A DNA stretch of 49,468 nucleotides from a virus (IMGVR_UViG_3300045885_000151:1-49468); one strand, 5' to 3'; positions 2,301 to 49,468 are shown, counted from the first letter of the stretch. Notes: a model not told the origin generated them from the letters alone. Numbers and translations are program-made.

Positions 2301-2426
2301 CGTCTTGCTCCAGAATCGCCCGGCCGCAACCCGACCGGGGATTTACCTATGGGACTTAAATCCTGCATAGTCAACGCTCCGAAGGGGATTTATGATCGAT
2401 TTCCGGGAAATCTGTGGAGAAAGTGC
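2301..2426. promoter_or_regulatory. Divergent control region with operator-like dyads
   Basis: The gap between divergent genes at 2300 (minus) and 2427 (plus). It holds the dyad GGACTTAAATCC (2352-2363), which also sits inside a wider inverted repeat GGATTTA (2339-2345)/TAAATCC (2357-2363). A perfect 7+7 dyad GATTTCC-G-GGAAATC lies at 2398-2412, immediately before the HTH gene's ribosome site GGAGAAAG. This is the expected layout for an autoregulated repressor. I cannot assign -35/-10 boxes with confidence. Confidence 0.6.
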
Positions 2427-2687
2427 ATGAAGAGTTTGGACGAGTACCTGACCGAGAAGGGCATCAGCGACGAGAAGGCGTCGCAGGCGATCGGCCTGTC
2501 GCGCGGCTATTTCAGCCGGGTGCGCAACGGCGTCGTGCATCCGAGCCTGGACACCGCGCTGCGGATCTACGACTGGGCCGGCGGCAAGATCGACATCAGA
2601 TCCATGGTGCCGCCCAGGGTGCGCAACCAGCGCCTGGTAGCGCCTGACCTGGTGAAAGTGCGCATCCCGAGGCGCAACGCCGCGTAG
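2427..2687 (+). CDS. Cro/CI-like HTH regulator
   Basis: An 86-residue protein. Residues 1-40 (LDEYLTEKGISDEKASQAIG, then LSRGYFSRVRNG) form a lambda-repressor-type helix-turn-helix, with the recognition helix around SRGYFSRVRNG. The C-terminus is basic (VRIPRRNAA). There is no peptidase or dimerisation domain, so it resembles a Cro-type or short repressor and not a cleavable CI. The start has GGAGAAAG upstream. It is the only rightward gene inside the leftward arm and is flanked on both sides by gaps carrying GGAC-N4-GTCC-like dyads, which are plausible binding sites. A lytic-lysogenic role is possible, but no integrase is visible. Confidence 0.8.
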   Translation: MKSLDEYLTEKGISDEKASQAIGLSRGYFSRVRNGVVHPSLDTALRIYDWAGGKIDIRSMVPPRVRNQRLVAPDLVKVRIPRRNAA

Positions 2688-3029
2688 CGCCTGGCGTTCA
2701 AGTGTTCCTAAGTGGAACTTATTCCTATCGGAAGTATACATAGATCAGCGTAAGACGGCGTTCGGCCTGGGTCCGCCACCGAACGCCGCTGCCGGTTTCT
2801 CGAGCAGTATCCGCGAGTACATTTCCGCGATTGCAACCAAATCGTTACTGTGTTTCAGCCGGCGGTTGCGCTGCCCGCTAGGGCACCTGGGAGCGCCGTA
2901 GAAGCGATTCAGGGGGTGCCATGCTAGATTTCACCTAGCGGACATAAGTCCGCTGTAGGGTGCCTCTAAGGGCCGGGAAATGGCAACCCGTCTAGATTGC
3001 AACAATGTGGCGGTTCAACCCTGGATACC
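2688..3029. promoter_or_regulatory. 342-base non-coding region with hairpin and operator-like dyad
   Basis: No convincing gene. The contents in order are: a compound dyad at 2704-2725 (GTTCCTAAGTGGAAC running into GGAACTTATTCC); a perfect 10-bp hairpin CGGCGTTCGG (2756-2765)/CCGAACGCCG (2779-2788) that may end the HTH transcript; then a stretch with recurring TAGGG and GGTGCC words; and the dyad GGACATAAGTCC (2940-2951), extended to a 7-bp stem AGCGGAC/GTCCGCT. It separates the 3' end of the HTH gene from the 3' end of the leftward helicase gene, so it is a convergent junction. Operator-like elements here are unexpected unless a promoter for a short or antisense RNA exists. Confidence 0.5.
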
Positions 3030-4430
3030 CTATGCCGCGGCCGCCATCTGGCGATCGGCGAGCCACTGCTCGAACGCCGCCTGGGCGTCCATCTTGCCCA
3101 TCACGCGCAGCCGCTTCAGCTCGTCGACCGAATTGCGCACGACGCAGACGTTGATCATGACGTGCGAGGCCGCCTGGCCGGGCCGCTGCGTCCTGGCGAG
3201 CGTCTGCTCCCACAGCTCGGGGCTCCAGGTCGGGCTCATCCATATCTGACGGCTGCCGCCGTGCTGGAGGTTGAGCCCATGGCCGCCGCTGGCCGGGTGC
3301 AGGGCTAGCAGGGGAACCCTGCCAGCGTTCCAGCCCTCGATCGCCGCGGCCGCGTCGCGATCGCTGACGCCGCCGCCCAGGTAGGGGATGTCGCCGAACA
3401 GGCGCCGCATGACGCGCAGATCCTCGACATACTCGTACACCAGGAGGGCGCTCTCGCCGTTCAGGCTCTCGACCGTCTCCTCAAGCCACTCGGTCTTAGC
3501 CTCGTGCAGGCGCGTCACGTCGGCATTGGTCTCGCCGTACAGGAAGCCGTTGCAGATCTGCGCGAGCTTGCCGGTGGCGACCGCCTCTGTCGCTGCCAGG
3601 ACGAATTCCTTCGGCTTCAGCTCGGCGAGCAGCTTGCGCTCCATGTCGCGGTAGGTGCGGCGCACGTCGGACGGCAGATCGACATTGTCGACCTGGACGA
3701 CCAGGGGAGGCATGTCCGGCATCTCGCCGTCGTTCAGCGTCACCGCGATCTGAGCGAACTCGCGCCGGATCTGATCCTCTGCGCCGGGGAGCGGTGCCCA
3801 CTGGTACTGATTCCAGTCGAGGGGGTAGAAGCGTCGCTGCCGCCAGCCGTAGAAGCTCTTGCCCCATAGGCGGCCATTGGTGATGATCTTCACCGGGTTG
3901 AACAGGTCGAGCGAGCTGTTGGGCCGCACCGTGCCGGTCAGACCCCAGCGCAGCTTGAAGCGACCGGCCAGCTTGGCCAGCGCCTTCCCTCTCTTGCTCT
4001 TCGGATCCTTCAGCCGGCTCGTCTCGTCGATCACAAGGCAGTCGAAGATCGGGTGGTCGAGCGGCGCCTTCTCCAGGATCTCGCAAAGCCACTGCACATT
4101 GTCGATGCCGCAGATGGTCACCTGGCGATCGCCGACGCCAGCTATCAAGCCACGACGCCGCTCCGGCCCGCCGTCGAGCACGACGTGCTTCAGCCAGGCC
4201 AGGTGAGACCAGCCGCGGATCTCGGCCGGCCACACCGACAGAGCCACCCGCTTCGGCGCGATCACGAGAGCGTGACGGATCACCTTGTCCTCGATCAGCT
4301 CGCCGATCGCGGTTAGCGCCGATGCGGTCTTGCCGGCGCCCATGCGCAGCACACCCATCGCCATGTCGTGCGAATAGAGATAGTCGGCGACCCGCCGCTG
4401 GTGCTCGTACAGCTCCGATTCCTGCCTCAC
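3030..4430 (-). CDS. SNF2-type superfamily II DNA helicase
   Basis: A 466-residue SF2 ATPase of the SNF2/Rad54-like phage type. Motif I is GAGKT (31-35). The Walker B position is VIDET (133-137, DETS where many relatives have DEAH). Motif III is LTGT (164-167). Motif V is ASGGHGLNLQ (380-389) and motif VI QTLARTQRPGQ (409-419), with the arginine finger pattern of the family. It probably remodels or unwinds DNA during phage replication. The ATG at 4430 overlaps the polymerase stop by four bases (ATGA), so the two are translated together. It is the last gene of the leftward replication operon. Helicases of this type often sit beside a family A polymerase, a Cas4-like nuclease and VRR-NUC in phages. 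Confidence 0.9.
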   Translation of the reverse strand: MRQESELYEHQRRVADYLYSHDMAMGVLRMGAGKTASALTAIGELIEDKVIRHALVIAPKRVALSVWPAEIRGWSHLAWLKHVVLDGGPERRRGLIAGVGDRQVTICGIDNVQWLCEILEKAPLDHPIFDCLVIDETSRLKDPKSKRGKALAKLAGRFKLRWGLTGTVRPNSSLDLFNPVKIITNGRLWGKSFYGWRQRRFYPLDWNQYQWAPLPGAEDQIRREFAQIAVTLNDGEMPDMPPLVVQVDNVDLPSDVRRTYRDMERKLLAELKPKEFVLAATEAVATGKLAQICNGFLYGETNADVTRLHEAKTEWLEETVESLNGESALLVYEYVEDLRVMRRLFGDIPYLGGGVSDRDAAAAIEGWNAGRVPLLALHPASGGHGLNLQHGGSRQIWMSPTWSPELWEQTLARTQRPGQAASHVMINVCVVRNSVDELKRLRVMGKMDAQAAFEQWLADRQMAAAA

Positions 4431-6613
4431 AGCTCGGCTCCCTTCTTCGCTTTCGTGTACCAGCGCCCGGTGCGGGCATCGGCCTTGAGCGGCAAGCCGC
4501 GCGTCCAGTCGAAGCCACGCTCCATCTCGGTCTTCAGCATGGCGGCCGCCGTGCTCGCGTACTCGATCGCGCTCTCGACCAGGATCTCGTCGTGGGTGTG
4601 CAGGCGCACCGGCATCCAGCTACGGTCCGGCGCCTCTTCCAGGCGCCGAAGGGTGCCGCGCATCAGGTCGGCGGCGGCCGCCTGGACGGCGTTCTCGACG
4701 GCGAGCCCGTACCACAGCTTCACCCTGCCCATCTCGCGGGCGAACGTCAGGTGGCGGCGATAGTCGATGATCTCGCCGGTGTCCTCGTCGACCTCTGCGA
4801 TGCGCTCCCAGCGGCAGCGCCGGTAAACGACGCAGCGTGTGCTGGGCAGGATGCACATCAGGCTGCCGCCCAGGTAGCTGTCGAGGAAGACGTAGGTGAG
4901 GCGGCCGGCCGTGTAGAAGACCCCTGGATCCTCCAGCGCCGACAGGATCGCCTGCCAGATCTCGTCCCAGAACGCCGGCGCCCACGCATTGGTGCGGCGC
5001 CAGGTCTCGATCATGCCCTTCGCCTCGGCGTGCGTGTAGTGCTTGCCGGTCGCCGCAGCTCGGGAAAGCAGGGCGTCGGCGCCGCCCCCAAAGCCCGAAG
5101 CCAGCTCGATGATTTTGCCGTCGTCGCGCAGGTGCTTGTGCTCGTCGACGTGCATGATGTCGGCCGTCGCGATGCCGGTGAAATCGGATGCCGAGCGGAC
5201 ATAGATGTCGGGGATCGACGGATCGGCGTCGACCTGGGTGAAGATATCGAGGCGCTTCTGCGCCTCCGGCGTCCCGGCCAGGAAAGGCAGAACCCTCGCC
5301 TCGATCGCCGACCAGTCGCACCATGCGAAGGCATTGCCGTCGCGCGGCGTCAGCGTGGGCCGGATGATCAGGGCGAGCTTGCGCGACCGCGGCGTGTCGT
5401 CGCCGAACACCGCCAGGTCGATGGCGCTGATACCGTCGACCAGTGCGTCGATCACGTCGGCCTCGTAGGGCAGCGCCGCGCGCGTCATGTTGTGAACCTG
5501 GACGCCGCGCGAGCTGAACCTGCCGGTGTGGGTGCCGTGGAAAATGTAGCTGTTGGAGACGACGCCATCGACGTGCTGTTCGAGCATACGGCTGAACTTG
5601 GCGCTCGCCTTCGATCCGCCGTACAGCCGAAGTTCGAGCACGCGCAGAGCCCGCTTGTGCTCGTCGGTCAGCGTCTCCAGCGACCACAGATAGGCGAGCA
5701 GCTTCTCGACCTTCTGCCTGGGCAGATCGTACTTGGTCGGCTTCTTGATCTCGCCGGTCTCCTCGTCGACGACCGCCTGGCGCTTCACCAGGATCTCGCG
5801 GCCGTCGAACGGCAGGGCGTCTTGCAGCCAGATGATCATCGACTTGATGGAGTCGATCGTCTTCACCTTGCCATCGGTCAGACCGATCAGCTCGCCGACC
5901 GTGAGCTGCTTGTCGATCGCAGCCATCCTGGCGGCCGCCTGGGCGAGTTCGAGATCGATGCCGATGCCGCGCTCCGAGATCGCCTGCGCAGCCCAGTATT
6001 CCTTCCACTCGGCGAGCGGGAGCTGCCTGGTCGCGTTGAACACCTTGCGCATCAGGACGGTGTCCTGGTCGGCGTAGTCGCAGAACTGATCCCACTCGAC
6101 CGGATGGCTCTCCGGCGTCGCGGTTGATTCCGGCAGCGTGAACAAGTCGATCAGCTTGCCGCCGTCCTCGTGCTTGCCGCCCTGGCCGGAGAAACGGCCG
6201 GCGAATTCGAGCTTGGCCGGCAAGCCGGATGCAACAGCCTGGACGCGGCTGTCGATGATCTCCTCGACGCCGAGCCAGGGGAAGTCGTGTGTGCTGTGGT
6301 TCCAGACGGCGCGATCGAAAGGCGCATTGTGCGCACACATGACCGCTTCACCGTCGAACACACGCTGCGCCATCGCGCGAAAATCATCGGGCATGTCGTC
6401 CCATGCCAGGGCGCGCTCGAATGTCTCGACCGCCGTCACCGTCACCGGGCCTTCACCGATCGCCCATGACAGGATGATCGCCTTCGCGTGAAGAGCATAT
6501 TTGTGGGTGCCCATCTCGATCGGCACGCCGCCCTTCGTTTCGAAATCGATCCACAAAATGTCGCCCGGCGAGAATGTCTCGCCGGGCTCCCTCTCGTCGC
6601 GTTTCGCGAGCAT
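4427..6613 (-). CDS. Family A DNA polymerase with 3'-5' exonuclease
   Basis: A 728-residue replicative polymerase. Exonuclease motifs: Exo I IDFET (D23, E25), Exo II NAPFD (N96, D100), Exo III YADQD (Y180, D184); all catalytic acids appear present. Polymerase motifs: TGRFSS (363-368), motif A CDWSAIEAR (D433, E438), motif B R496-x3-K500-x3-L504-x3-F508-G509, motif C HDE (674-676). By alignment to E. coli Pol I the position of Phe762 is Leu504 and that of Tyr766 is Phe508, both unusual. There is no 5'-nuclease domain. The start overlaps the upstream stop as TGATG. It probably copies the phage genome together with the neighbouring helicase and primase-helicase. Confidence 0.93.
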   Translation of the reverse strand: MLAKRDEREPGETFSPGDILWIDFETKGGVPIEMGTHKYALHAKAIILSWAIGEGPVTVTAVETFERALAWDDMPDDFRAMAQRVFDGEAVMCAHNAPFDRAVWNHSTHDFPWLGVEEIIDSRVQAVASGLPAKLEFAGRFSGQGGKHEDGGKLIDLFTLPESTATPESHPVEWDQFCDYADQDTVLMRKVFNATRQLPLAEWKEYWAAQAISERGIGIDLELAQAAARMAAIDKQLTVGELIGLTDGKVKTIDSIKSMIIWLQDALPFDGREILVKRQAVVDEETGEIKKPTKYDLPRQKVEKLLAYLWSLETLTDEHKRALRVLELRLYGGSKASAKFSRMLEQHVDGVVSNSYIFHGTHTGRFSSRGVQVHNMTRAALPYEADVIDALVDGISAIDLAVFGDDTPRSRKLALIIRPTLTPRDGNAFAWCDWSAIEARVLPFLAGTPEAQKRLDIFTQVDADPSIPDIYVRSASDFTGIATADIMHVDEHKHLRDDGKIIELASGFGGGADALLSRAAATGKHYTHAEAKGMIETWRRTNAWAPAFWDEIWQAILSALEDPGVFYTAGRLTYVFLDSYLGGSLMCILPSTRCVVYRRCRWERIAEVDEDTGEIIDYRRHLTFAREMGRVKLWYGLAVENAVQAAAADLMRGTLRRLEEAPDRSWMPVRLHTHDEILVESAIEYASTAAAMLKTEMERGFDWTRGLPLKADARTGRWYTKAKKGAEL

Positions 6614-7437
6614 CAGATCGGCGATGCGCTGCCGGAGCGAGCGCGCCGCGGAGCACGGGTCTGGCGGAACTGCTCGGCGACCTTGGTCACCTCGTCAGCG
6701 CCCGCCGGCTGCCCGGTCCCTTGCGCCGGAGCGCCACCCGTCTGCTGCACCTGGGAAGGCGCCGCGGCCGGAGCGGCAGCGGCACCGCCGCCATTGCCCT
6801 TCGGCTGGGCGGCCGCGACCGGCTCGGTGTCGTCGCCGACAGCGCGCCAGCCGACCACCTTGAAGTGCGGCGTAGCGATCCAGCCGTGCGTCTTGTGCTT
6901 GTAGCCGTCTTTGAGGAGCTGGAGCAGCGCCACCGGCTTCGACGGATCCGTCGCGAGCTGCTTCTCCAGCTCGGCCAGGAAGTCATCCACGCAGCGCAAC
7001 CCTCCGTAGGACGACGTCTTGAAGAGCATCTGCGTGCCCTTGTCGTCGCCGTTGGTGACGACCATCAGCATGGTGCGCTGATCCTTGTAGGGATGCCCCT
7101 GGATCGGGCCGGGCATCGCCGGCTTATCTTCGAAGACGGGAACCATCTTCTCGTCGAGCAGCTCGTTCGGGCCGGTCTGGCCCTCTGCCTTGCGCTCCCA
7201 GCAGACGTAGCCGTGATTGATGAACATCGGGTGCGCCGCCAGGATGGCGGTCGCCTCGATCTCATCGTCCTGCTGGCCGAACACCCAGCGACCGTCCTTC
7301 AGGAAGCGAAGGAGCGGCTCGTTGCTGGCGAGCGGCGTCTGCTGGCGCGACACGCGAATGCCACCCAGCAGCTTGTTCACGAAGTCCGCCGACATCGGCA
7401 GGTTCGTGCTGGTCTTGTTGGTGATGTCGTTGCTCAT
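6613..7437 (-). CDS. Uncharacterised replication-operon protein, 274 aa
   Basis: No family recognised. Residues 1-190 look globular, with conserved-looking segments LRFLKDGRWVFGQQDDEIE, MFINHGYVCWERKAEG and GWIATPHFKVVGW. Residues about 205-255 are a low-complexity Gly/Ala/Pro/Gln linker, followed by a basic tail (TRAPRRARSGSASPI). The layout (globular part plus flexible tail, directly upstream of the polymerase with a TGATG overlap) recalls single-stranded DNA-binding proteins. The tail is basic, not acidic, so this is only a suggestion. GAAAGGAAAAA precedes the ATG. Expression is as part of the leftward replication operon. Confidence 0.75.
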   Translation of the reverse strand: MSNDITNKTSTNLPMSADFVNKLLGGIRVSRQQTPLASNEPLLRFLKDGRWVFGQQDDEIEATAILAAHPMFINHGYVCWERKAEGQTGPNELLDEKMVPVFEDKPAMPGPIQGHPYKDQRTMLMVVTNGDDKGTQMLFKTSSYGGLRCVDDFLAELEKQLATDPSKPVALLQLLKDGYKHKTHGWIATPHFKVVGWRAVGDDTEPVAAAQPKGNGGGAAAAPAAAPSQVQQTGGAPAQGTGQPAGADEVTKVAEQFRQTRAPRRARSGSASPI

Positions 7438-7477
7438 CCGTTTTTCCTTTCTTCCGTTGAGCCTGTTTGAACGACGT

Positions 7478-7508
7478 GGGGCCGGTCACCGGAGAAGGGG
7501 CCGGCCCC
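7478..7508 (-). other. Hairpin in the gap between two leftward replication genes
   Basis: GGGGCCGG (7478-7485) pairs with CCGGCCCC (7501-7508). A smaller alternative stem CCGG-TCA-CCGG sits inside. It fills the 127-base gap between genes at 7437 and 7565. No U-tract follows on the minus strand, so partial attenuation or RNA protection is more likely than full termination. Confidence 0.4.
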
Positions 7509-7564
7509 TGCCATCTGTGCATTGCATTGGCGGACCTGGCGCCCGATGGCACGGCGCCCGGCTA

Positions 7565-7942
7565 CTACTCTTCGAAGCGAGACTCGCTCACCTCGTACAT
7601 ATGATCGGCGTCCTCCTTGGCGCCTTTCAACGTCTCGTGGATCTCGTCGATCGCAACCGTGTCGAGCTTCTCGATCAAATGGACCGCATAGGAAACGGAG
7701 CTGAGCGCCGTATCAAGATTGTCGATCGCGATGTCGCGCCAGCCTTCCGGCAGCTCGCAGGCATGGTCGTTGAGATCCTGCTCGACCTGGTGGAGGCGAT
7801 CGATCCAATCAGCCTTCTTCTCGTCGATGAGTTCGCTGAATGCCTTCGCCTCGGCGATCAGCTTCTCGATCTCACTGCGATTGTCGGGTGGCACCAATTT
7901 CGGGTCCGTCCACGAGTAGCTGTCCGTGTTGAAAAATCCCAT
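7565..7942 (-). CDS. Hypothetical acidic helical protein, 125 aa
   Basis: Starts MGFFNTDSYSWTDPKLVPPD. After a short N-terminal segment it is a long, acidic, mostly helical protein (IEKLIAEAKAFSELIDEKKA onward) with heptad-like spacing, so a coiled-coil or helical bundle is likely. The start at 7942 has ACGGAGAAACGGAAC upstream and lies 17 bases after the nuclease gene, in the same operon. Between a Cas4-like nuclease and the polymerase, a replication or recombination accessory role is plausible. No family recognised. Confidence 0.7.
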   Translation of the reverse strand: MGFFNTDSYSWTDPKLVPPDNRSEIEKLIAEAKAFSELIDEKKADWIDRLHQVEQDLNDHACELPEGWRDIAIDNLDTALSSVSYAVHLIEKLDTVAIDEIHETLKGAKEDADHMYEVSESRFEE

Positions 7943-7959
7943 GTTCCGTTTCTCCGTTT

Positions 7960-9180
7960 TCAAAGAGCCTTGAGGGCTATCGCCAGGCGCTCGGTCACCG
8001 CCTTGCGGTCGACGCTCGGCCTGGGATCTTCTGCCGGCGCGATGTTGGTGCCGGACGATACCGATTCGTAGAGCGCCTCGGGCAGCGTCACGCTGCGCGA
8101 CTTGCACGTCTTCTCCATCTGGGCGACGGACTTGAGCTTGGGCGCCTCGTACATTTCGCCGCCTGGGATGCCGAGCGCATTCAAGGTGCCGAGCACGTCG
8201 GCGTCAGCCTTCCAGGTGCGGTTCGCCCTCTTGGGCACGAGGCGCCAGTTCGGCACGGCAGCGCCGCTCTCCATCAGCAGATGGGCCTGGCGCCGGATCT
8301 CTGCGATCCACAGCTCGGCCTGCTCGGCCACGTCCAGCGCCGCGCTGATGTAGGTGCCGAAGCTGGTGGCGCCGTTGGCCGGCCTGGTCGATTCCTTCAT
8401 CGCCGCGGCCTGCGGGTCGAGCACGGCCAGGTCGAACACCTTGCCGGTCCACAGCTTGCACGTCGATTTGCACGGCGCCCAGCGGCACCAGTCGCCCTTC
8501 TCGCGATGCGGGTTGCGACCGAGCGCCTCGGTCACCGACTGCTTGAAACGCTGGTGGTATTCATCCAGCTCCTCGTGGGTGACCTCGGTGTAGCTAAGAC
8601 CGTCGTCGATCGCCGGCTGCACGATCGCCATGATGATGCGGCGCTTCTTGTTGAAGATCTTCGGCCAGTGCGACCGCGCACTGATCGTGTAGTAGACCGG
8701 CTGCGGGTTGAGCGTTTCGCTGTCAGGGTCGTCGGGGATCGGGTAGGTCGCGCGAACAATTACGCCCGAGCCATATTTCCAATCGACGACGACGACGAAC
8801 TCCTTGTTCGCCAGGACGAGATCGACGCTGCCGAAGGCGCCGGCTATGCCGGGCATTGCCAGCGTCGTCTCGACGCCGATCACCTTGTATTTGCCGCCGC
8901 CGGTGGAATCGAGGAGGTCGCGCAGCATGTCGAAACCCTTGGCGACATCGTCGACCAGATCCTTGCCGGGATAGCCCAGGAAGGTCTCGCCTTCGAAGTT
9001 CACCGGCTGCTTCACCTCGGTCATGCACTTCGCTGCGAGCGCGTGCTTCGCGCTGCCGAGATCGGCATAGCCGGAGGTGGTGTCGGAGACGGGAGAGCGC
9101 TGGATCTCGGAGTAGGATGCCGGGCAATTGAGGAGACGGCTCGCGTTGGAGCCACCTAGAATTGGACTGTGCTCGGACAT
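7960..9180 (-). CDS. Cas4/RecB-like PD-(D/E)XK nuclease (DUF2800-like)
   Basis: A 406-residue protein. The N-terminus SNASRLLNCPASYSE is typical of phage DUF2800 proteins. Nuclease residues: H46 (LGSAKH), D120 (GSVDLV), D133 and K135 (VDWK), then QPVYYT with the family's Q-x-x-Y pattern. Four cysteines, C19 with C232, C237 and C241 (WCRWAPCKSTCKLW), fit the split iron-sulphur cluster of Cas4/AddB-type nucleases. It probably trims DNA ends during recombination-dependent replication. The start has a strong AAGGAGG and faces the VRR-NUC gene across a 68-base control region. It is the first gene of the leftward arm. Confidence 0.87.
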   Translation of the reverse strand: MSEHSPILGGSNASRLLNCPASYSEIQRSPVSDTTSGYADLGSAKHALAAKCMTEVKQPVNFEGETFLGYPGKDLVDDVAKGFDMLRDLLDSTGGGKYKVIGVETTLAMPGIAGAFGSVDLVLANKEFVVVVDWKYGSGVIVRATYPIPDDPDSETLNPQPVYYTISARSHWPKIFNKKRRIIMAIVQPAIDDGLSYTEVTHEELDEYHQRFKQSVTEALGRNPHREKGDWCRWAPCKSTCKLWTGKVFDLAVLDPQAAAMKESTRPANGATSFGTYISAALDVAEQAELWIAEIRRQAHLLMESGAAVPNWRLVPKRANRTWKADADVLGTLNALGIPGGEMYEAPKLKSVAQMEKTCKSRSVTLPEALYESVSSGTNIAPAEDPRPSVDRKAVTERLAIALKAL

Positions 9181-9248
9181 CCGATTTGCCTCCTTGCCGA
9201 TGTTCCGTTGCGCTGCTTAGGTGGTCACCTTAACCGGATTTTAGTCCT
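9181..9248. promoter_or_regulatory. Divergent early promoter/operator region
   Basis: Sixty-eight bases separate the two arms of the genome, so promoters for both must lie here or inside the flanking genes. Visible elements are the inverted repeat AGGTG-GT-CACCT (9219-9230) and the operator-like dyad GGATTTTAGTCC (9236-9247), which abuts the ATG at 9249. The leftward gene has a good AAGGAGG. The rightward gene has no Shine-Dalgarno sequence at all. A repressor on 9236-9247 would cover the rightward start site. Confidence 0.65.
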
Positions 9249-9536
9249 ATGCGCAAGCTGGTCGAGAAGGACGTCGAGAGCTACCTGGTCGACCAAGTCG
9301 AGGCGCTCGGCGGGCTGTGTCCGAAATTGATCAGTCCAGGAGGCCGCGGCTTCTTCGATCGGCTTGCCCTTTTGCCCGGTGGTCGGCTAACCTTCGTCGA
9401 GGTCAAACGACCACGAGGCGGCCGCGTCAGCGGGCACCAGCGCGAACTCCATGCGGCATTCCAAGCGCTCGGCGCCAACGTAGCCATCGTGAAGACGAAG
9501 GGGGATGTCGATCGGCTGCTCGGCCGACCGGCATAG
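9249..9536 (+). CDS. VRR-NUC domain nuclease
   Basis: A 95-residue stand-alone VRR-NUC protein. Motifs: E10 in the first helix, GRGFFDRL with D37, EVKRP with E51 and K53, and GHQRE with Q64, which is the PD-(D/E)XK arrangement of the family. Stand-alone viral members cut branched DNA such as Holliday junctions, so a role in resolving replication intermediates before packaging is likely. The ATG at 9249 directly follows the dyad at 9236-9247 and lacks a ribosome site, so translation may start on a leaderless or very short leader. A terminator follows at 9553-9590. Confidence 0.88.
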   Translation: MRKLVEKDVESYLVDQVEALGGLCPKLISPGGRGFFDRLALLPGGRLTFVEVKRPRGGRVSGHQRELHAAFQALGANVAIVKTKGDVDRLLGRPA

Positions 9537-9552
9537 ACGCGCGCAAACATGG

Positions 9553-9590
9553 AAGAGGCCAGCCAGGGTGCTACCCCTGCCGGCCTCTTT
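9553..9590 (+). terminator. Terminator after the VRR-NUC gene
   Basis: AAGAGGCC (9553-9560) pairs with GGCCTCTT (9582-9589), and CAGGG/CCCTG extends it inside. A short T-run (CTCTTTGG) follows. It lies between the nuclease and the primase-helicase genes, so the latter depends on read-through or on a promoter in 9590-9633. Confidence 0.65.
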
Positions 9591-9633
9591 GGATTGGAAC
9601 ATCAAGAGCTTTCGAGAGACACGAGACATTCCA

Positions 9634-12183
9634 ATGGCAGATTCCGTACCTCCTTACATACCGCACCGCAACAACTTCCTTTATGACAAGCGCGTGGCCA
9701 TGCTGGGGTTCGGCTGGCCCACCATCACCTGCGAGCGCAAGATCTTCATCGACCCAGGCTGGTCGACGGTCGAAATCGACCTCCCCTTCATCCAGGCCAA
9801 CCATGCCCGCCGCGGCGGGTCGAAGTGGAGAGGGGCCGGCGTCAGGCTCACGCCCGGCATGATGGTGTGGGATCTTGATATCAAAGACCGTGTGCTGATG
9901 GACGCCGTGCTCGATGCGATCGAGGCGGACCCATACTTCTCGACATTCTTGAGCGGCGCATTGTGGAGGCATTCCGGCGGGGCGAGCTGGGCACTGTTCA
10001 TGCAGGCATCGGCGCCGATCGCCGGCAAGCACAGCGCCACGTTCGGGCGTGAAGCGACATTCGAGACGACCGACGAGGCGCTCGAAAATCACCATCAGAC
10101 AGTGTGGGTGGACAAGGCGCATATCGAGATCTGGGGTGGCGGCGGCGGCGGCAAGTACTTCGCCGTGTGCGGGCCTCACAGCGAGGGTCGTGAGTACGAT
10201 TTCGACGGCCCGGCGCCGTGGGACACGCCGCTCAGCTCGCTGCCGGTGTTCGATGTGGATCAGGTCGGTCGCCTGATCGACCTGGTCGAGGCGGTGATGG
10301 CGAAGACGCTGACCAAGATCAGCGACGCGCGCAGCCTGGATGGATTGCGTGATGTCTACGACCTAACGCCACAGACGACGTTCGTGCGCAAGGACCGCTC
10401 AACCGTCACGCTCGCCGAGCTGGAGCGCACGCTGCGCGTGGGTACTTCACACGGTGAGCGCGGCTGCATGACCATGCAGGAATGGGTGGAATCGGACAGC
10501 CACGCACGCTGCCACGCATATCGTCGCGAGACCAACAAGCGGCTGACCATCACCAACTTCTTCGACATGACGCAGCACTATTATGTCGATGAGGAGCCGG
10601 CGCCGCCGTTCCAGCTCAGCGCATCCGCGGCAGCCGTGCTCAAGGCGATGCTCGACAACGCGCAGTCGGAGGCGCCGACAGAGCCGGAACCGGAGGCAGA
10701 GCCGGATCCTCATGCGTGGATCCATTGCCACACGATCGAGGGCATTAAGCGCGAGACGAGGCCGGTCGACACACACGACAATGCGACAGCCTGGTTGATC
10801 ACGCACGTCGCCTACTATGCGCAAGCGTTCAAGAGCGCGCCTGGCGGCATCTCGATATCGGTCGATGGCGAGTATCAGAAGCCGGTGTCGATCGTTGGCC
10901 TGCGCCACGCCATGAAGGCATATGGATACATCCTGGAAGGGCCGAGGGGCGGCCAGCGTTTCATCAATCCGGTAGACACCTGGCTGGCCAGCGAGCACCT
11001 GGTGCGCATCGGTGGCGTTCGCATGAGGCCGGACCTGCCGCGGCCAATGATGCAGGAGGGCACGGTCAGGTTCGTCAATCGCTATGCGCCGCCGTCGCAT
11101 CCCACGTCAGGCGGCGAGGTGCGCACTTGGCTGCGCAACATGGAGCGGCTGATCCCCGACCCGATCGAGCGCGCCTGGGTGATCAACTTCGTCGCCTGCA
11201 AGGTGCAGCACCCAGAGTGGCGCATGGTCGGTCTCGCCATGGTGGCGCACGAGCACGGCACCGGGCGCGGCCTGTTCGCGGAGACGTTGCAATACCTATT
11301 CGGCGAGCAATTCGTCGTGCCGCTGCGCTATGACGACATCACGGCGAGCCCACGCTTCAACGGCGAGGTCGAGGACCGCCTCATCGTCTATGTCAATGAG
11401 GCCAGGCACGCCGACAGCAATCGCTATGGCGTGAAGACGGCGAGCCGTGAGGCGCTGAAGGTCTTCATAGAGCCCAACCACCGCATACCGCAGCGCATCG
11501 AGAAGAAGGGCATCGACGTCTATTTCACGCACTTGGCGCTGATGACGCTGATCTTCGCCAACTCGATCAAGGCTGTGCCGATCGACGAGCACGATCGCCG
11601 CACTGGCGTGGTCATGAACGGCGCACAGATGACCACACAGCAGCGCGACGAGTACCAGGCATGGATGCTGGTGCCGGCCAACATAGGCGCCTTGTATCGC
11701 TTCCTGCGCGACTATGCGGTCGAAAAGGACCGCAAGATCTTCGACCCGTTCATGGCGCCTATGTTCGTGGGCCGTGACATGATGATCGAGGCGACGCAGA
11801 GCGAGATCGACCGTGCGTGGGCGGCCGCGGTTGCCAGGCTGAAGGATGCAGCGGATCTCTATGCGATGAGCCAGGCTGTGGCGCTGGCGCGCTCGTACAT
11901 GAGCGGGCCGGGTGATGATCTCACCGGGCTCTTGCGCAACCACACCTACGACAAGGGGCACCGCATCGGCGTGAAGCGTCCGAGCGAGCGCAATTGGCTG
12001 ACCAGATTCGGCACCGGCAAGGACAATCGCCAGGCGGTGTTTGCGCATAACGCAGAGGATGCGCGGGTGTGGACGAGCCGCGACAGCAGCGAGATCCTGG
12101 CAGAGTTGGAGAAGGCGCAGAAGGTGATCGATGCGCCGGCGAAGGCGGTGAACAAGGCGCTGAAGCTGGTGCCGAGGGAGTGA
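9634..12183 (+). CDS. Primase-helicase (AEP prim-pol plus D5-like SF3 NTPase, DUF5906-like)
   Basis: An 849-residue replication protein. The N-terminal part fits an archaeo-eukaryotic-type primase: WDLDIKD (D80, D82), RHSGGASW (112-119) and KYFAVCGPHSEG (174-185). An acidic linker follows (about 346-359, alternating E and P). The C-terminal part is a virus-type helicase: Walker A position EHGTGRG (540-546), Walker B LIVYVNEA (583-590, N588-E589) and sensor-like LIFANS (639-644). The Walker A lysine is replaced by Arg545. It probably synthesises primers and unwinds DNA at the origin. ATG at 9634 was chosen because the conserved region starts there; the ribosome site is weak. Eight short repeats follow the stop. 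Confidence 0.85.
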   Translation: MADSVPPYIPHRNNFLYDKRVAMLGFGWPTITCERKIFIDPGWSTVEIDLPFIQANHARRGGSKWRGAGVRLTPGMMVWDLDIKDRVLMDAVLDAIEADPYFSTFLSGALWRHSGGASWALFMQASAPIAGKHSATFGREATFETTDEALENHHQTVWVDKAHIEIWGGGGGGKYFAVCGPHSEGREYDFDGPAPWDTPLSSLPVFDVDQVGRLIDLVEAVMAKTLTKISDARSLDGLRDVYDLTPQTTFVRKDRSTVTLAELERTLRVGTSHGERGCMTMQEWVESDSHARCHAYRRETNKRLTITNFFDMTQHYYVDEEPAPPFQLSASAAAVLKAMLDNAQSEAPTEPEPEAEPDPHAWIHCHTIEGIKRETRPVDTHDNATAWLITHVAYYAQAFKSAPGGISISVDGEYQKPVSIVGLRHAMKAYGYILEGPRGGQRFINPVDTWLASEHLVRIGGVRMRPDLPRPMMQEGTVRFVNRYAPPSHPTSGGEVRTWLRNMERLIPDPIERAWVINFVACKVQHPEWRMVGLAMVAHEHGTGRGLFAETLQYLFGEQFVVPLRYDDITASPRFNGEVEDRLIVYVNEARHADSNRYGVKTASREALKVFIEPNHRIPQRIEKKGIDVYFTHLALMTLIFANSIKAVPIDEHDRRTGVVMNGAQMTTQQRDEYQAWMLVPANIGALYRFLRDYAVEKDRKIFDPFMAPMFVGRDMMIEATQSEIDRAWAAAVARLKDAADLYAMSQAVALARSYMSGPGDDLTGLLRNHTYDKGHRIGVKRPSERNWLTRFGTGKDNRQAVFAHNAEDARVWTSRDSSEILAELEKAQKVIDAPAKAVNKALKLVPRE

Positions 12184-12186
12184 TTT

Positions 12187-12397
12187 TGTCACCCAAACCC
12201 TGTTTTGTCACCCGGTGTCACCCACTGGGTGACAGTGGTAAGTGATTGGTGGGACTTGGTTTTATGGGTGTTTGTCACCCTGTCACCCATTATAGCTCGC
12301 GTGTATGGAGATTATAGACGTGAAAATGAGAGACCAGGAAAATGCGATCCTAATCCGCTCTCGCGTACGCGCGCGCGAGTCGGGTGACAGGGTGACA
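12187..12397. repeat. Eight TGTCACCC repeats, candidate replication origin
   Basis: TGTCACCC occurs at 12187, 12206, 12216, 12273 and 12281. Its complement GGGTGACA occurs at 12227, 12382 and 12390. The copies at 12216 and 12227 form an inverted pair. The first and last blocks face each other around a more A+T-rich middle (12284-12350). A further hairpin CTCGCG/CGCGAG lies at 12360-12379. The layout, directly after the primase-helicase gene, fits iterons of an origin or sites of a replication regulator. No supported gene lies between 12184 and 12428. Confidence 0.7.
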
Positions 12398-12428
12398 GCG
12401 GTTTGACCGGCAGAAAGGGAGAAGGCGA

Positions 12429-12647
12429 ATGGGGTTCAATGATTGGCTGAAAGTCGCCAGGGTCACCGATGACCCGGCAGGCGATCTTATCGGCGACATG
12501 AAGGGCGACAGAACGTTCCCGGCAGTGGTGAGAGGGCGCGCACCGCTGGCACGGTATCTTTCGTCGCAAGGCGCCTGCGCGGAAGCGAAGGAGGCATTGT
12601 CGGTCGTGTGGGCGCGCTATCGACGGTGGAGGAGCAAGCGTGGCTAA
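12429..12647 (+). CDS. Hypothetical small protein, 72 aa
   Basis: Starts MGFNDWLKVARVTDDPAGDL and ends in a basic helix (VVWARYRRWRSKRG). The central part with GDMKGDRTFP and RGRAPLARYLSSQGA reads like the small YozE-type phage proteins, a resemblance I cannot confirm. GGGAGAAGGCGA precedes the ATG. The stop overlaps the next gene's GTG start by 8 bases, so the two are coupled. It is the first gene after the repeat cluster. Confidence 0.65.
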   Translation: MGFNDWLKVARVTDDPAGDLIGDMKGDRTFPAVVRGRAPLARYLSSQGACAEAKEALSVVWARYRRWRSKRG

Positions 12648-13047
12648 CCGGCCTTCCTGGCGACTGCCTATGCGGCACGGCCCCAAGAGCGCGTCGTTCC
12701 CGCCTGGCATGGTGCGATCGCAGTTCGGTGATGGGCATCCCAGTCGGCGACGATGCGTGGCGATCGCGAAGGGCAGCGGCGAGCAATGCAAGCGCGACGC
12801 ATTGCAGGGCAGTGCACGGTGCCACGCCCACGGTGGTCATCTCCAGGCTTACCGCAATGCGCCGGCCGGCTTCATATCGACCAGGAGCGGCAAGGCAGCG
12901 GTGCGCAACGCGCTGTTCAAGCTCCAGCTCGTCGAGCCTTTCCCGCCTGGCGTGGAGCTGCCGAGATCTTACGTGGAGCGTGGGCGCATCATCGAGACGG
13001 AGCGAAACCGTCGTGTAGGATTGACGGCAAAGCCCCGCGGCAAATAA
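12640..13047 (+). CDS. Small protein with Cys/His zinc-knuckle-like HGG motif
   Basis: A 135-residue protein. Residues 39-66 hold the pattern C(VAIAKGSGEQ)C(…)C-HAHGG, with three cysteines and two histidines. This is the signature of the small phage HGG-motif proteins often found near terminase or replication genes; their role is unknown, and zinc and nucleic acid binding are likely. The N- and C-termini are basic. The start is GTG at 12640, decided by GTGGAGGAGC just upstream and the 8-base overlap with the previous gene. Confidence 0.7.
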   Translation: MANRPSWRLPMRHGPKSASFPPGMVRSQFGDGHPSRRRCVAIAKGSGEQCKRDALQGSARCHAHGGHLQAYRNAPAGFISTRSGKAAVRNALFKLQLVEPFPPGVELPRSYVERGRIIETERNRRVGLTAKPRGK

Positions 13048-13473
13048 TCGTAGGGCGCGCGTCGCCGGCTCGCCGGCCCGCCGCCGCGCCGATCGGCGCC
13101 GTTTCAGCCCCCTGGAGGGCGCCGGTCGGTCGCGCTCGACCACCTGGTAAGCAGCCGGTTGAACGGCGGAACATATGTCCGCCGCAGAGCCAATGATATC
13201 AAGGGGTTACGGACCTATGTCCTAACCTACGCACAACCCTATGCACAGTCGGGGCAACAGTGGGGCAACAGGCGCCAGGGCAACAGGGGGCGCGGGCGGC
13301 CCCCGCCAGGTGCGCGGGCGCGCGGCCGCCCCCTGGGCCGCCCCCGCGCGCGGCGGCCGGCGCCGTGCTGGGCTGAGTGCCAAAATTTTTTGGATTTTGC
13401 CGCCAAAGATTTTGGATTTTGCCGCCGCACCGAGATGGGACTATGGTCCCTCCTGCAACACGAGGAGGGCCAG
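13048..13473. promoter_or_regulatory. 426-base non-coding region with three operator-like dyads
   Basis: The largest gene gap. It carries dyads GAACATATGTCC (13169-13180, inside a longer GGCGGA/TCCGCC stem), GGACCTATGTCC (13211-13222) and GGGAC-TATG-GTCCC (13437-13450), an extremely G+C-rich block (about 13261-13376) with overlapping GGGCGGCC-type dyads, and a 17-base direct repeat (13388, 13410). An open frame crosses part of it, but its composition there is that of the G+C block, not of a gene. It lies between the replication genes and the later rightward genes, so it probably holds the middle/late promoter and its control sites. Confidence 0.6.
13388..13426 (+). repeat. 17-base direct repeat, spacing 22
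   Basis: TTTTGGATTTTGCCGCC occurs at 13388-13404 and again at 13410-13426. The start-to-start distance is 22 bases, about two turns of the helix, so a protein could bind both copies on one face. It lies 48 bases before the ATG at 13474 and just upstream of the dyad at 13437-13450. It is a possible activator site for the downstream genes. Confidence 0.7.
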
Positions 13474-13674
13474 ATGGCTGCGACGAAAGCGGAATACCAC
13501 ACCTATCTCCAGGACATGCTCAACCGGGAGGGCATGTCGAGGGACGAGGCGGTGAGGGCGACCAACATTCACTTCGGCTATGGCAGCTCGACGGCGCTCC
13601 AGCATGACGTCTCGACCGACCCCGACACGCCGTCCACGCAGCCGCACGACAAGGGCGGCGGCGAGGCGGCATGA
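13474..13674 (+). CDS. Hypothetical protein, 66 aa
   Basis: Starts MAATKAEYHTYLQDMLNREG. The N-terminal half is helical; the C-terminal 20 residues are hydrophilic and rich in D, P, T and G. The ATG at 13474 has CGAGGAGGGC upstream, and the upstream part of the same frame falls in the G+C-rich non-coding block, so I start here. The stop overlaps the next ATG (ATGA). First gene after the presumed late control region. Function unknown. Confidence 0.65.
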   Translation: MAATKAEYHTYLQDMLNREGMSRDEAVRATNIHFGYGSSTALQHDVSTDPDTPSTQPHDKGGGEAA

Positions 13675-14539: not shown

Positions 14540-14708
14540 GATGGGACATGGTTGGTCGGGACTTGTGTTCGTGGCCCTCCTGGCGTTAGCCTGGCTTCGC
14601 TTCCGCAGCACTTCGTCGTCTACGTCCACCAGGCTCGACGGCGATATGAAGGATCAAAAGGGCCAGGCACAGTGTCCTGGAAACCGGGTCGGGGGTAAGG
14701 ACTGCTGA
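14532..14708 (+). CDS. Small membrane protein, 58 aa
   Basis: Starts MPEMGHGWSGLVFVALLALA. One transmembrane segment covers about residues 9-23 (SGLVFVALLALAWLRF), followed by a Ser/Thr stretch and a hydrophilic tail with two cysteines. The ATG at 14532 overlaps the previous gene by 8 bases; a second in-frame ATG at 14541 lies just after that stop and could be the true start. Function unknown. Confidence 0.5.
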   Translation: MPEMGHGWSGLVFVALLALAWLRFRSTSSSTSTRLDGDMKDQKGQAQCPGNRVGGKDC

Positions 14709-45556: not shown

Positions 45557-45790
45557 TCACAACCCGGCGAGTTTCAGTCTCCGAAGAGCGCGCCGGACAG
45601 CGGCGCAGGTGTTGGCGGCGATCGGACCATGGGCCGGCGCCTCGTTGCGGGTGCCATATGACCACAACGTCGCGAGCCTGCCACCAACCCAGAGCTGCCA
45701 GTGCCGGCGGCCTGGTCGGAGTTCCCAGTCGTGGCCTTCCAGCTCGTCGAGCAGGACTTTCGGCAGGCGCGGTCGGCGGACCTTGCTCAT
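45557..45790 (-). CDS. Small basic protein, HicA-like impression, 77 aa
   Basis: Starts MSKVRRPRLPKVLLDELEGH. The core WELRPGRRHWQLWVGGRLAT and NTCAAVRRALRRL resembles the small HicA-like (dsRNA-binding-fold) phage proteins. I see no partner antitoxin beside it, and the resemblance is only to the strand-helix pattern, so a toxin role is not claimed. The upstream gene overlaps its start by four bases. Confidence 0.6.
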   Translation of the reverse strand: MSKVRRPRLPKVLLDELEGHDWELRPGRRHWQLWVGGRLATLWSYGTRNEAPAHGPIAANTCAAVRRALRRLKLAGL

Positions 45791-45990
45791 CGTGACCTCC
45801 TCAGCATGACGCCGCCGCCGGTGCCGGCGGATCCGATAATTCGGTGACCCTCATTTCGCAGACAGCGAAGATCCCGGTAGACGGTGCGCACCGAGACATC
45901 GAGCCGGCAAGCAATCGCGAAGACCAGGAGGGCGTTGCCCTCCTGGAGCAGGGCGAGGAGCGCCGGCAGGCGATCGGCGCGCAGCTTCAT
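45787..45990 (-). CDS. Small winged-HTH protein, 67 aa
   Basis: Residues 8-45 fit an HTH_11/DeoR-type winged helix: LPALLALLQEGNALLVFAIA, then LDVSVRTVYRDLRCLRNEGH with the recognition helix VRTVYRDLRCL. It ends with a Gly-rich wing and RRSR. Probably a transcription regulator of the accessory genes. Four-base overlaps link it to both neighbours, one of which is a second HTH protein. Confidence 0.75.
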   Translation of the reverse strand: MKLRADRLPALLALLQEGNALLVFAIACRLDVSVRTVYRDLRCLRNEGHRIIGSAGTGGGVMLRRSR

Positions 45991-46244
45991 GTCGCGTTCC
46001 TTTGCGCGACGATCGACCAGCCGAGCGCCGAGAGCAGCCTGATGCAGGTCTCGATGCGCGGGAAGCGGGTGGCGCCGGAGGCGATGTTGGACACCGTGCT
46101 CGATGCCAGCACAGCCTTCGCGGCGACTGCCTTGTAGGTCTCCTTGCTGGTCAGCAGCTCGTTCTGGATCAGCTTGATGGTCGACGGCGAGTCGATCAGC
46201 GTCACCAGTGGCCGGCGCCGCTCGATCTTGACAACGTTGGTCAT
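45987..46244 (-). CDS. XRE-like HTH protein, 85 aa
   Basis: After a basic N-terminus (KIERRRPL), residues about 34-75 form an XRE-type fold: KETYKAVAAKAVLASSTVSN, IASGATRFPRIETCIRLLSA. The recognition helix is likely ASSTVSNIAS. No other domain. It is directly followed by a winged-HTH gene, so two DNA-binding proteins are made together. Its operator is unknown. Confidence 0.78.
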   Translation of the reverse strand: MTNVVKIERRRPLVTLIDSPSTIKLIQNELLTSKETYKAVAAKAVLASSTVSNIASGATRFPRIETCIRLLSALGWSIVAQRNAT

Positions 46245-47167: not shown

Positions 47168-47373
47168 TAGAGGTCGGCCTCCCAGGCTGCGATGAGGGCG
47201 ACACGCTTGGCTTCCTTCGCCTGGCGGATCATCTCCTCCAGGAAGCGGGCGGTAGGCGTCAGGCCGCCCTGTTTCTGGCGGCCGTAGATCAGCGCGATCG
47301 CCTCGGTGCGCACCGTCTGATCGTGGCCGCCACGAAGCCCTTCCAGCTTCGCGATCAGTTCGTCTATGGTCAT
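47167..47373 (-). CDS. Hypothetical protein, 68 aa
   Basis: Starts MTIDELIAKLEGLRGGHDQT. Helical, with a Gly break near residue 15 and EEMIRQAKEAKRVALIAAWE at the end. No motif. Coupled to both neighbours (ATGA upstream, TAATG downstream). Confidence 0.6.
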   Translation of the reverse strand: MTIDELIAKLEGLRGGHDQTVRTEAIALIYGRQKQGGLTPTARFLEEMIRQAKEAKRVALIAAWEADL

Positions 47374-47933
47374 GGCGTTGTCCTATGTTTGTGTCCGTCG
47401 CCCCAGGCTTCCCAGCCTGGGGTCTTTTCATTGGCGAACAGCTCGACGCGACGGACGTCGCCGAACAGCTTCATCAGTCCCGCTCGCGCCTCATCGGGCT
47501 TGCGGGAATGCTCACGCACCGGCGCTACGATGAGACGGCGAACGGAATGGTCGCGGATGGGGAGCCCCTTGCCGTACCAGAACAGGAAGCACTGCTCGGT
47601 GTTGGCGCGGGTGGTCTTGCCGGTGCCGAAGTGCCAGCGCTGTCCGGTCTTGGTCAGCTTCGCCCAGGTGAAGCACACGGTCGAGTAGCGCAGCCCCCAC
47701 CAGCGGGCGAGTTCGAGCATCTGCGGTATGTGCGTGTCGATCACCCAGGACACGACCGCGGAGTTGCGCTCCATCAGGTCGGGCAAGGGGAAGGTCTGGA
47801 GAGAGGTGAAGTCGAGCCGCGCATAGGGTGGTGGCTTGCCGTCGCCGGCCGGCGAGCGTGTCTTCCAGCGCCAGGGCGGATCCATATAGGCCAGGTCGAA
47901 CGGACCTTCCGGCAGATTTTTCCACAGCGACAA
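47370..47933 (-). CDS. MT-A70 family adenine DNA methyltransferase
   Basis: A 187-residue protein with the catalytic DPPW (18-21) after FDLAYM. Also WVIDTHIPQMLELARWWGLR, GTGKTTRANTEQCFLFWYGK, REHSRKPDE and ELFANEKTPGWEAWGD, the order of small phage MT-A70 N6-adenine methyltransferases. It transfers a methyl group from S-adenosylmethionine to adenine in DNA, which may protect phage DNA from restriction. No ATG is suitably placed. TTG at 47933 has CGGAGGTCTAGCG directly upstream, so I take TTG as the start. No restriction enzyme is seen next to it. Confidence 0.85.
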   Translation of the reverse strand: MSLWKNLPEGPFDLAYMDPPWRWKTRSPAGDGKPPPYARLDFTSLQTFPLPDLMERNSAVVSWVIDTHIPQMLELARWWGLRYSTVCFTWAKLTKTGQRWHFGTGKTTRANTEQCFLFWYGKGLPIRDHSVRRLIVAPVREHSRKPDEARAGLMKLFGDVRRVELFANEKTPGWEAWGDGHKHRTTP

Positions 47934-49287: not shown

Positions 49288-49468
49288 CAGTGCATCCTTC
49301 CTTTCAGGACGTTGGCGAAAGCCTGCGGCGAGGCGCCCTCGCCGCAGGCGGTTTTCGACGCGCGGTAGATCATCAGCATCGCGTCGGGATCATCGTGAGA
49401 GTTGAAGATCTGCTGGCCGAGCAGACGCTCGACCTCCAGGACGAAGGCGGTCCACTCCTCGCGCGTCG
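49287..49468 (-). CDS. C-terminal part of the gene cut by the contig ends
   Basis: This is the same gene as 1-152, entered from the right end. The frame continues through KTACGEGASPQAFANVLKGR and ends MH with the stop at 49289-49287. It shows that the two ends of the window are adjacent in the real molecule. The right copy has Gly where the left copy has Asp. Confidence 0.7.
   Translation of the reverse strand, partial: TREEWTAFVLEVERLLGQQIFNSHDDPDAMLMIYRASKTACGEGASPQAFANVLKGRMH
49336..49468. repeat. Right copy of 133-bp terminal direct repeat
   Basis: Matches 1-133 with one difference (49342 C versus 7 T). A palindromic stretch GCCTGCGGCGAGGCGCCCTCGCCGCAGGC spans 49321-49349 at its left border (CCTGCGGCGAGG against CCTCGCCGCAGG), so the repeat boundary falls within a strong hairpin. 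The hairpin lies in coding sequence. Confidence 0.88.

Follow-up and report, generated by a model that had tools for sequence, protein, structure and literature searches.

Dispersed intergenic dyads as candidate operators of a small XRE/Cro-like protein in a virus genome and its relatives

Described regulators and the layout of the genome

The operators of the Cro/CI-type regulators of phages lambda, 434 and P22 lie in divergent early promoters and are organised as two tripartite operators. In the virus DNA analysed here (49,468 bases; the whole stretch is termed the window), dyads of the form GGACN4GTCC likewise occur in promoters, and the gene of a small protein with the HTH_3/lambda-repressor fold, 434 Cro being among its fold matches, is divergent from the early operon. 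By contrast with the Cro/CI systems, the sites are scattered among four or more loci instead of forming two tripartite operators, and no partner protein carrying a dimerisation or peptidase domain is seen; the small protein itself (the 2427 protein, 86 residues), unlike lambda CI-type repressors, is without a C-terminal oligomerisation/peptidase domain. A further difference is that no integrase was found among 40 proteins scanned against PHROGs, in agreement with the first-pass annotation of the DNA, which had described a phage without a recognisable one.

The operators of restriction-modification controller (C) proteins usually have the form GACTtatAGTC (PMC3115060), with an A/T centre, and occur as pairs with a conserved central GT, of about 35 bp. 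The 2427 protein is, like C.AhdI and C.BclI, a short XRE protein, near to them by fold and weakly by sequence; the dyad GGAC-TTAT-GTCC is close in form to GACTtatAGTC (PMC3115060), and its placement is similarly autoregulatory. Unlike the genes of C proteins, that of the 2427 protein is not next to a restriction-modification system, and the sites are single and scattered, or 42 bp apart (13169/13211), rather than 35-bp pairs. The sole methyltransferase found is a DNA methyltransferase homologue at 47370-47933 (phrog_359, E 2.7e-53), for which the scanned proteins gave no restriction partner.

In cluster A mycobacteriophages, including L5 and TipsytheTRex, one site is present in many copies in short intergenic spaces and promoters genome-wide (PMC9283540). 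The present arrangement, in which one site is repeated across the intergenic spaces and promoters of a phage genome, resembles this operator/stoperator network, but differs in that the L5-type stoperators are asymmetric 13-mers, with a two-domain monomer of about 183 residues, whereas here there are dyads and an 86-residue candidate. Literature searches for this phage motif turned up no published description, only the analogues cited here. The system, a proposed phage regulator with dispersed operators, would belong to a type already described.

The 133 bases common to both ends of the record (1-133 and 49336-49468, identical at 99.2%) make it probable that the genome is complete, whether circularly closed or terminally redundant. 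Gene calls and profile matches define a leftward early arm that spans the ends of the record (45017 to 2300), a replication block at 3030-9180, likewise leftward, with SNF2 helicase, DNA polymerase A and exonuclease, and, starting at 9249, rightward genes for VRR nuclease, primase, tail fibres, terminase, portal and capsid. The early arm includes a DUF932 protein (679-1737, phrog_1362), with homologues 39-45% identical in six other viral contigs. Just past the primase gene, at 12188-12396, GTCACCC/GGGTGAC repeats, at least eight in number and lying in both orientations, form an iteron-like cluster, a possible replication origin; no such cluster was seen in the relative G1. The large terminase is distant from those of named phages (best match 53%, a Microcystis phage), and bacterial genomes gave only three helicase homologues, all distant (30-32%).

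Table 1. Features of the window, followed by dyads lying between -35 and -10 boxes in related phages
Feature	Position	Strand	Sequence	Remarks
HTH_3 (XRE/Cro-like) protein, 86 aa, proposed binder	2427..2687	+		PF01381, 24.5 bits vs cut-off 23
Candidate operator A, dyad	2352..2363	.	GGACTTAAATCC	divergent region, upstream of HTH gene
Weaker dyad	2386..2397	.	GGATTTATGATC	score 9.5, intergenic, between 2352 and HTH start
Candidate operator B, dyad	2940..2951	.	GGACATAAGTCC	3' of helicase gene
Candidate operator C, dyad	9236..9247	.	GGATTTTAGTCC	exonuclease/VRR-nuclease divergence; ends one base before ATG at 9249
Candidate operator D1, dyad	13169..13180	.	GAACATATGTCC	primase-to-tail-fibre region; aligns with G1 10593 GGACATAGATCC
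Candidate operator D2, dyad	13211..13222	.	GGACCTATGTCC	42 bp from D1
Candidate operator D3, dyad	13438..13449	.	GGACTATGGTCC	24 bp before ATG at 13474
Weak match	14559..14570	.	GGACTTGTGTTC	score 11.4, intergenic, uncertain
SNF2-type helicase	3030..4430	-		PF00176, phrog_62; 3' end flanks candidate operator B
VRR-type endonuclease	9249..9536	+		phrog_93 endonuclease, E 2.5e-23; begins at candidate operator C
Dyad between boxes, G8	7334		TTGACT-AGCGCACATAGGTCCAC-TATATA	
Dyad between boxes, G20	33718		TTGACT-AGCGTACATGTGTCCGC-TATATG	
Dyad between boxes, G20	17402		TTGATT-TATGGACCTATGTACAC-TAAGTT	
Dyad between boxes, G16	13269		TTGACA-GCTTGGATATATGTTCA-TAGGAA	upstream of HTH gene
Dyad between boxes, G20	22669		TTGACG-TGTGCATATGTACATCT-TATCTC	upstream of HTH gene

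Distribution of the dyads in the window and in related phages

The six 12-mers listed by the first-pass annotation, at 2352, 2940, 9236, 13169, 13211 and 13438, were all found exactly there and, as it had held, are non-coding, none overlapping a called gene; the coding/intergenic labels rest on a home-made gene caller. GGACN4GTCC is exact at 2940, 13211 and 13438, with one arm mismatch in the other three. Enrichment of the raw pattern was rejected, as the one-mismatch count in the window (17) is below that expected from dinucleotide shuffles (33.2 +/- 5.9), a deficit that would fit the reading in which the dyads are chance, i.e. a few palindromes spotted in A/T-richer intergenic DNA. The non-random features are the location of the sites and their A/T-rich centre, the keeping of which had been pointed out from the outset, rather than the pattern count.

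A scoring matrix built from the six sites gives them 14.8-19.5 bits, with 12.1 for the best coding match; only one coding position attains 12 bits, and none 13, equally good matches thus being absent from coding DNA. Because scoring the six sites with their own matrix is circular, a leave-one-out run was made, in which five of the six still score above every coding position. The exception, 13438, the weakest of the six, gives 11.6 against 12.3 for the best coding position, which is a further point on the side of chance.

The proposal that the dyads are placed only at control points nearly stands, the departures being 2940, on which the HTH and helicase genes converge from either side and which is therefore not at an obvious control point, a further weak match at 20098, which is coding, and the weaker extra intergenic matches at 2386 and 14559. 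The 2386 dyad is a possible second operator; taken individually, 13438, 2386 and 14559 may each be chance. Between D2 and D3, at 13252-13426, there are short repeats, GGGCAACAG three times and TTTTGGATTTTGCCGCC twice (22 bp apart).

Relatives were gathered by terminase, polymerase and helicase (alignment A1 for the last); the wide HTH alignment (A2) proved too heterogeneous for scanning the collection, and a primase query by peptide pattern found no viral contig. The matrix, trained on the window only, was applied unchanged, with shuffled intergenic DNA of the same composition as the null. In G1, G8 and G20 together (8.5 kb intergenic) there are six intergenic matches of at least 12 bits, compared with 0.22 in shuffles, none of 100 of which reaches six; the density at this threshold is 7.0 per 10 kb in intergenic and 0.5 per 10 kb in coding DNA (5 in 100 kb). 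In G16, G19 and G17 four matches of at least 11 bits were found against 0.61 expected (0/100 shuffles), with none in 130 kb coding. By contrast, there is no enrichment in the 46 relatives in which no 2427-type gene was detected, some of whose loci are contig fragments, with one intergenic match of at least 12 bits against 2.2 expected (0.14 per 10 kb in intergenic and 0.12 in coding DNA).

The sole exact site in G1, at 810, is the 2940 12-mer on the other strand, some 10 bp beyond the stop codon of the helicase gene, and that in G8 is the 13211 12-mer, at a different intergenic place. The excess over composition-matched shuffled intergenic DNA in the relatives, together with these 12-mers common to the window, G1 and G8, led to rejection of the chance reading for the set as a whole, and we consider it very improbable.

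The first-pass annotation had made its case depend on dyads at the same positions in close relatives, and such dyads occur. Related dyads lie upstream of the HTH gene in the window (2352), G8 (3408), G20 (22669) and G16 (13269), 3' of the helicase in the window (2940) and G1 (810), and in the exonuclease/VRR-nuclease gap in the window (9236) and G20 (33718), with a weak one in G1 (6886). In the primase-to-tail-fibre region they are found in the window (13169/13211/13438), G1 (10593/10819/10841) and G19 (14272/15751/15887), with a weak one in G16 (60998). Additional sites precede further leftward genes in G8 and G20; the matrix scan gave no sites in the primase-to-fibre region of G8 and, although the HTH gene is present, no good site in G17. 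Across relatives the consensus, GGAC half-sites around an A/T-rich 4-bp centre, is roughly GKACNTANGTMC, and from one sister phage to another the operator changes at one or two bases, together with the HTH protein.

Another intergenic dyad, TCAAN5TTGA, is present about 2.3 kb past the helicase in L053, L058, L061, L063, L064, L066, L068 and L069, which are relatives without a 2427 homologue; several of these loci have pairs 29-30 bp apart at a conserved place. These dyads are possibly operators of another regulator.

Promoter context, the candidate binder and alternative readings

Several dyads in G8, G20 and G16 fall inside the 17-bp spacer separating -35 and -10 boxes (Table 1). In the window, 2352 is flanked by TTTACC and CATAGT boxes (p 0.08) and 13438 overlaps a candidate -10 box, TATGGT; at 2940, 13169 and 13211 promoter boxes are no better than at random intergenic positions (p 0.64, 0.14 and 0.21, respectively). 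A sigma-70 reading is convincing for sites in G8, G20 and G16, but was rejected for the window as a whole, as it fails for 2940, 13169 and 13211.

The same context bears on whether the dyads might function not as DNA operators but in RNA, i.e. as GGAC-N4-GUCC stem-loops with a part in processing, anti-termination or protein binding, since those located between -35 and -10 boxes would be absent from the transcript of that promoter. Strong hairpins are predicted at 2940 and 13169 (z -3.8 and -3.7), and the outer arms at 2940, G1 810 and G8 8295 pair with different bases (AGCGGAC/GTCCGCT, AGGGGAC/GTCCCTT and TAGTGGAC/GTCCACTA). The first flanking base pair of the 12-mers is complementary in 13 of 23 sites, with no preferred base (shuffle mean 5.6, p 0.001; 32% for other palindromes). 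Half-sites read independently by a dimer would not be expected to show such pairing, a point against a dimer operator. With the core fixed, however, the flanks extend the pairing inconsistently, the mean z for the two strands being -0.98 and -0.31, compared with -0.42 for other intergenic N4 palindromes, and the stem is mismatched in many sites (2352, 13169, most of those in G20). The Rfam search gave no match, neither Rfam families nor tRNAs being found. Core-fixed folding and the outer-pair counts show the RNA-hairpin reading to suit a few sites, not the set, for which we hold it to be quite improbable.

With respect to the binder, the 2427 protein belongs to HTH_3 (PF01381), on the basis of a profile score above the curated cut-off and a helical HTH fold. 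Its AlphaFold model (pLDDT 85) has high-confidence helices at residues 4-11, 15-22, 26-33, 41-50 and 57-60, followed by a basic tail (residues 61-86) of lower confidence. The fold neighbours, at modest E-values of about 0.01-0.2, are small regulators, including C.AhdI, C.BclI, CylR2 and SinR, with 434 Cro further down. The gene is surrounded in the window by small unknown genes and the helicase, and its homologues adjoin the helicase in G1, G8, L036/G20, L034/L035 (G19), L031/G16 and L032/G17, none being found in the other relatives searched. Close relatives of the protein in viral contigs were found only in G1 beyond the window, and it has no match in 50,697 GenBank phage records.

Co-distribution with the sites and autoregulatory placement favour the 2427 protein, already singled out by the first-pass annotation, as the best candidate binder; dyads in the HTH promoter of several genomes are as expected for autoregulation. 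Helicase identity also places the genomes with the HTH gene nearest to the window, and common ancestry could therefore account for the co-distribution. This confounding by phylogeny leaves room for operators with another binder, be it a host factor, an HTH protein at 45787-46244 or an undetected phage protein, and the 45787 protein is a good HTH_11 match. A clear homologue of the latter is, however, present only in L031, and none of the 45987 protein was found in the relatives searched; as most other genomes with sites have no homologues of them, these two proteins, earlier put forward as alternatives, are disfavoured. Were the binder a host factor, sites would probably be present as well in the relatives with no detected HTH gene, where none are enriched. 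Overall, another binder appears improbable.

Proposed mode of action and implications

With a probability of roughly 0.7, we propose that the dyads serve as operators, in double-stranded DNA, to which the phage's own 2427 protein binds as a dimer, probably as a repressor; as intergenic dyads at likely switch points, present in phages sharing a 2427-type protein, they are most likely its docking sites. Each half-site would read GGAC, flanking an A/T-rich, bendable 4-bp centre. The protein would probably bind inside promoters, either over the -35 and -10 boxes or in the stretch separating them; since a protein bound in the spacer would exclude RNA polymerase, repression offers the simplest reading. 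Besides regulating its own promoter, the 2427 protein would dampen or time expression of the early leftward operons, of the replication arm at the exonuclease/VRR divergence and of the region where the rightward late genes start. At 2940, between convergent gene ends, it may block read-through; one study describes a controller protein as an elongation roadblock (PMC6237814). We infer the 2427 protein as binder, its binding as a dimer, repression and a genome-wide regulon, and the physiological role would be in lytic timing rather than lysogeny.

A more far-reaching proposal, which we regard as doubtful, is that a stand-alone, controller-like XRE protein of 86 residues is the single master switch of an integrase-less phage, with the same dyad being used as promoter operator and as roadblock at convergent ends, e.g. 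at 2940, and with the operator drifting between sister phages. If this were true, the drift between sister phages would provide a series for the co-evolution of operator and recognition helix outside the classical temperate phages.

The proposed operator set would give a concrete regulon for a group of uncultured phages, with a regulator lacking a match in GenBank phage records. Since the operator varies with the HTH protein between sister phages, the evolution of specificity can be followed, and the regulatory network would be readable from metagenomic contigs alone.
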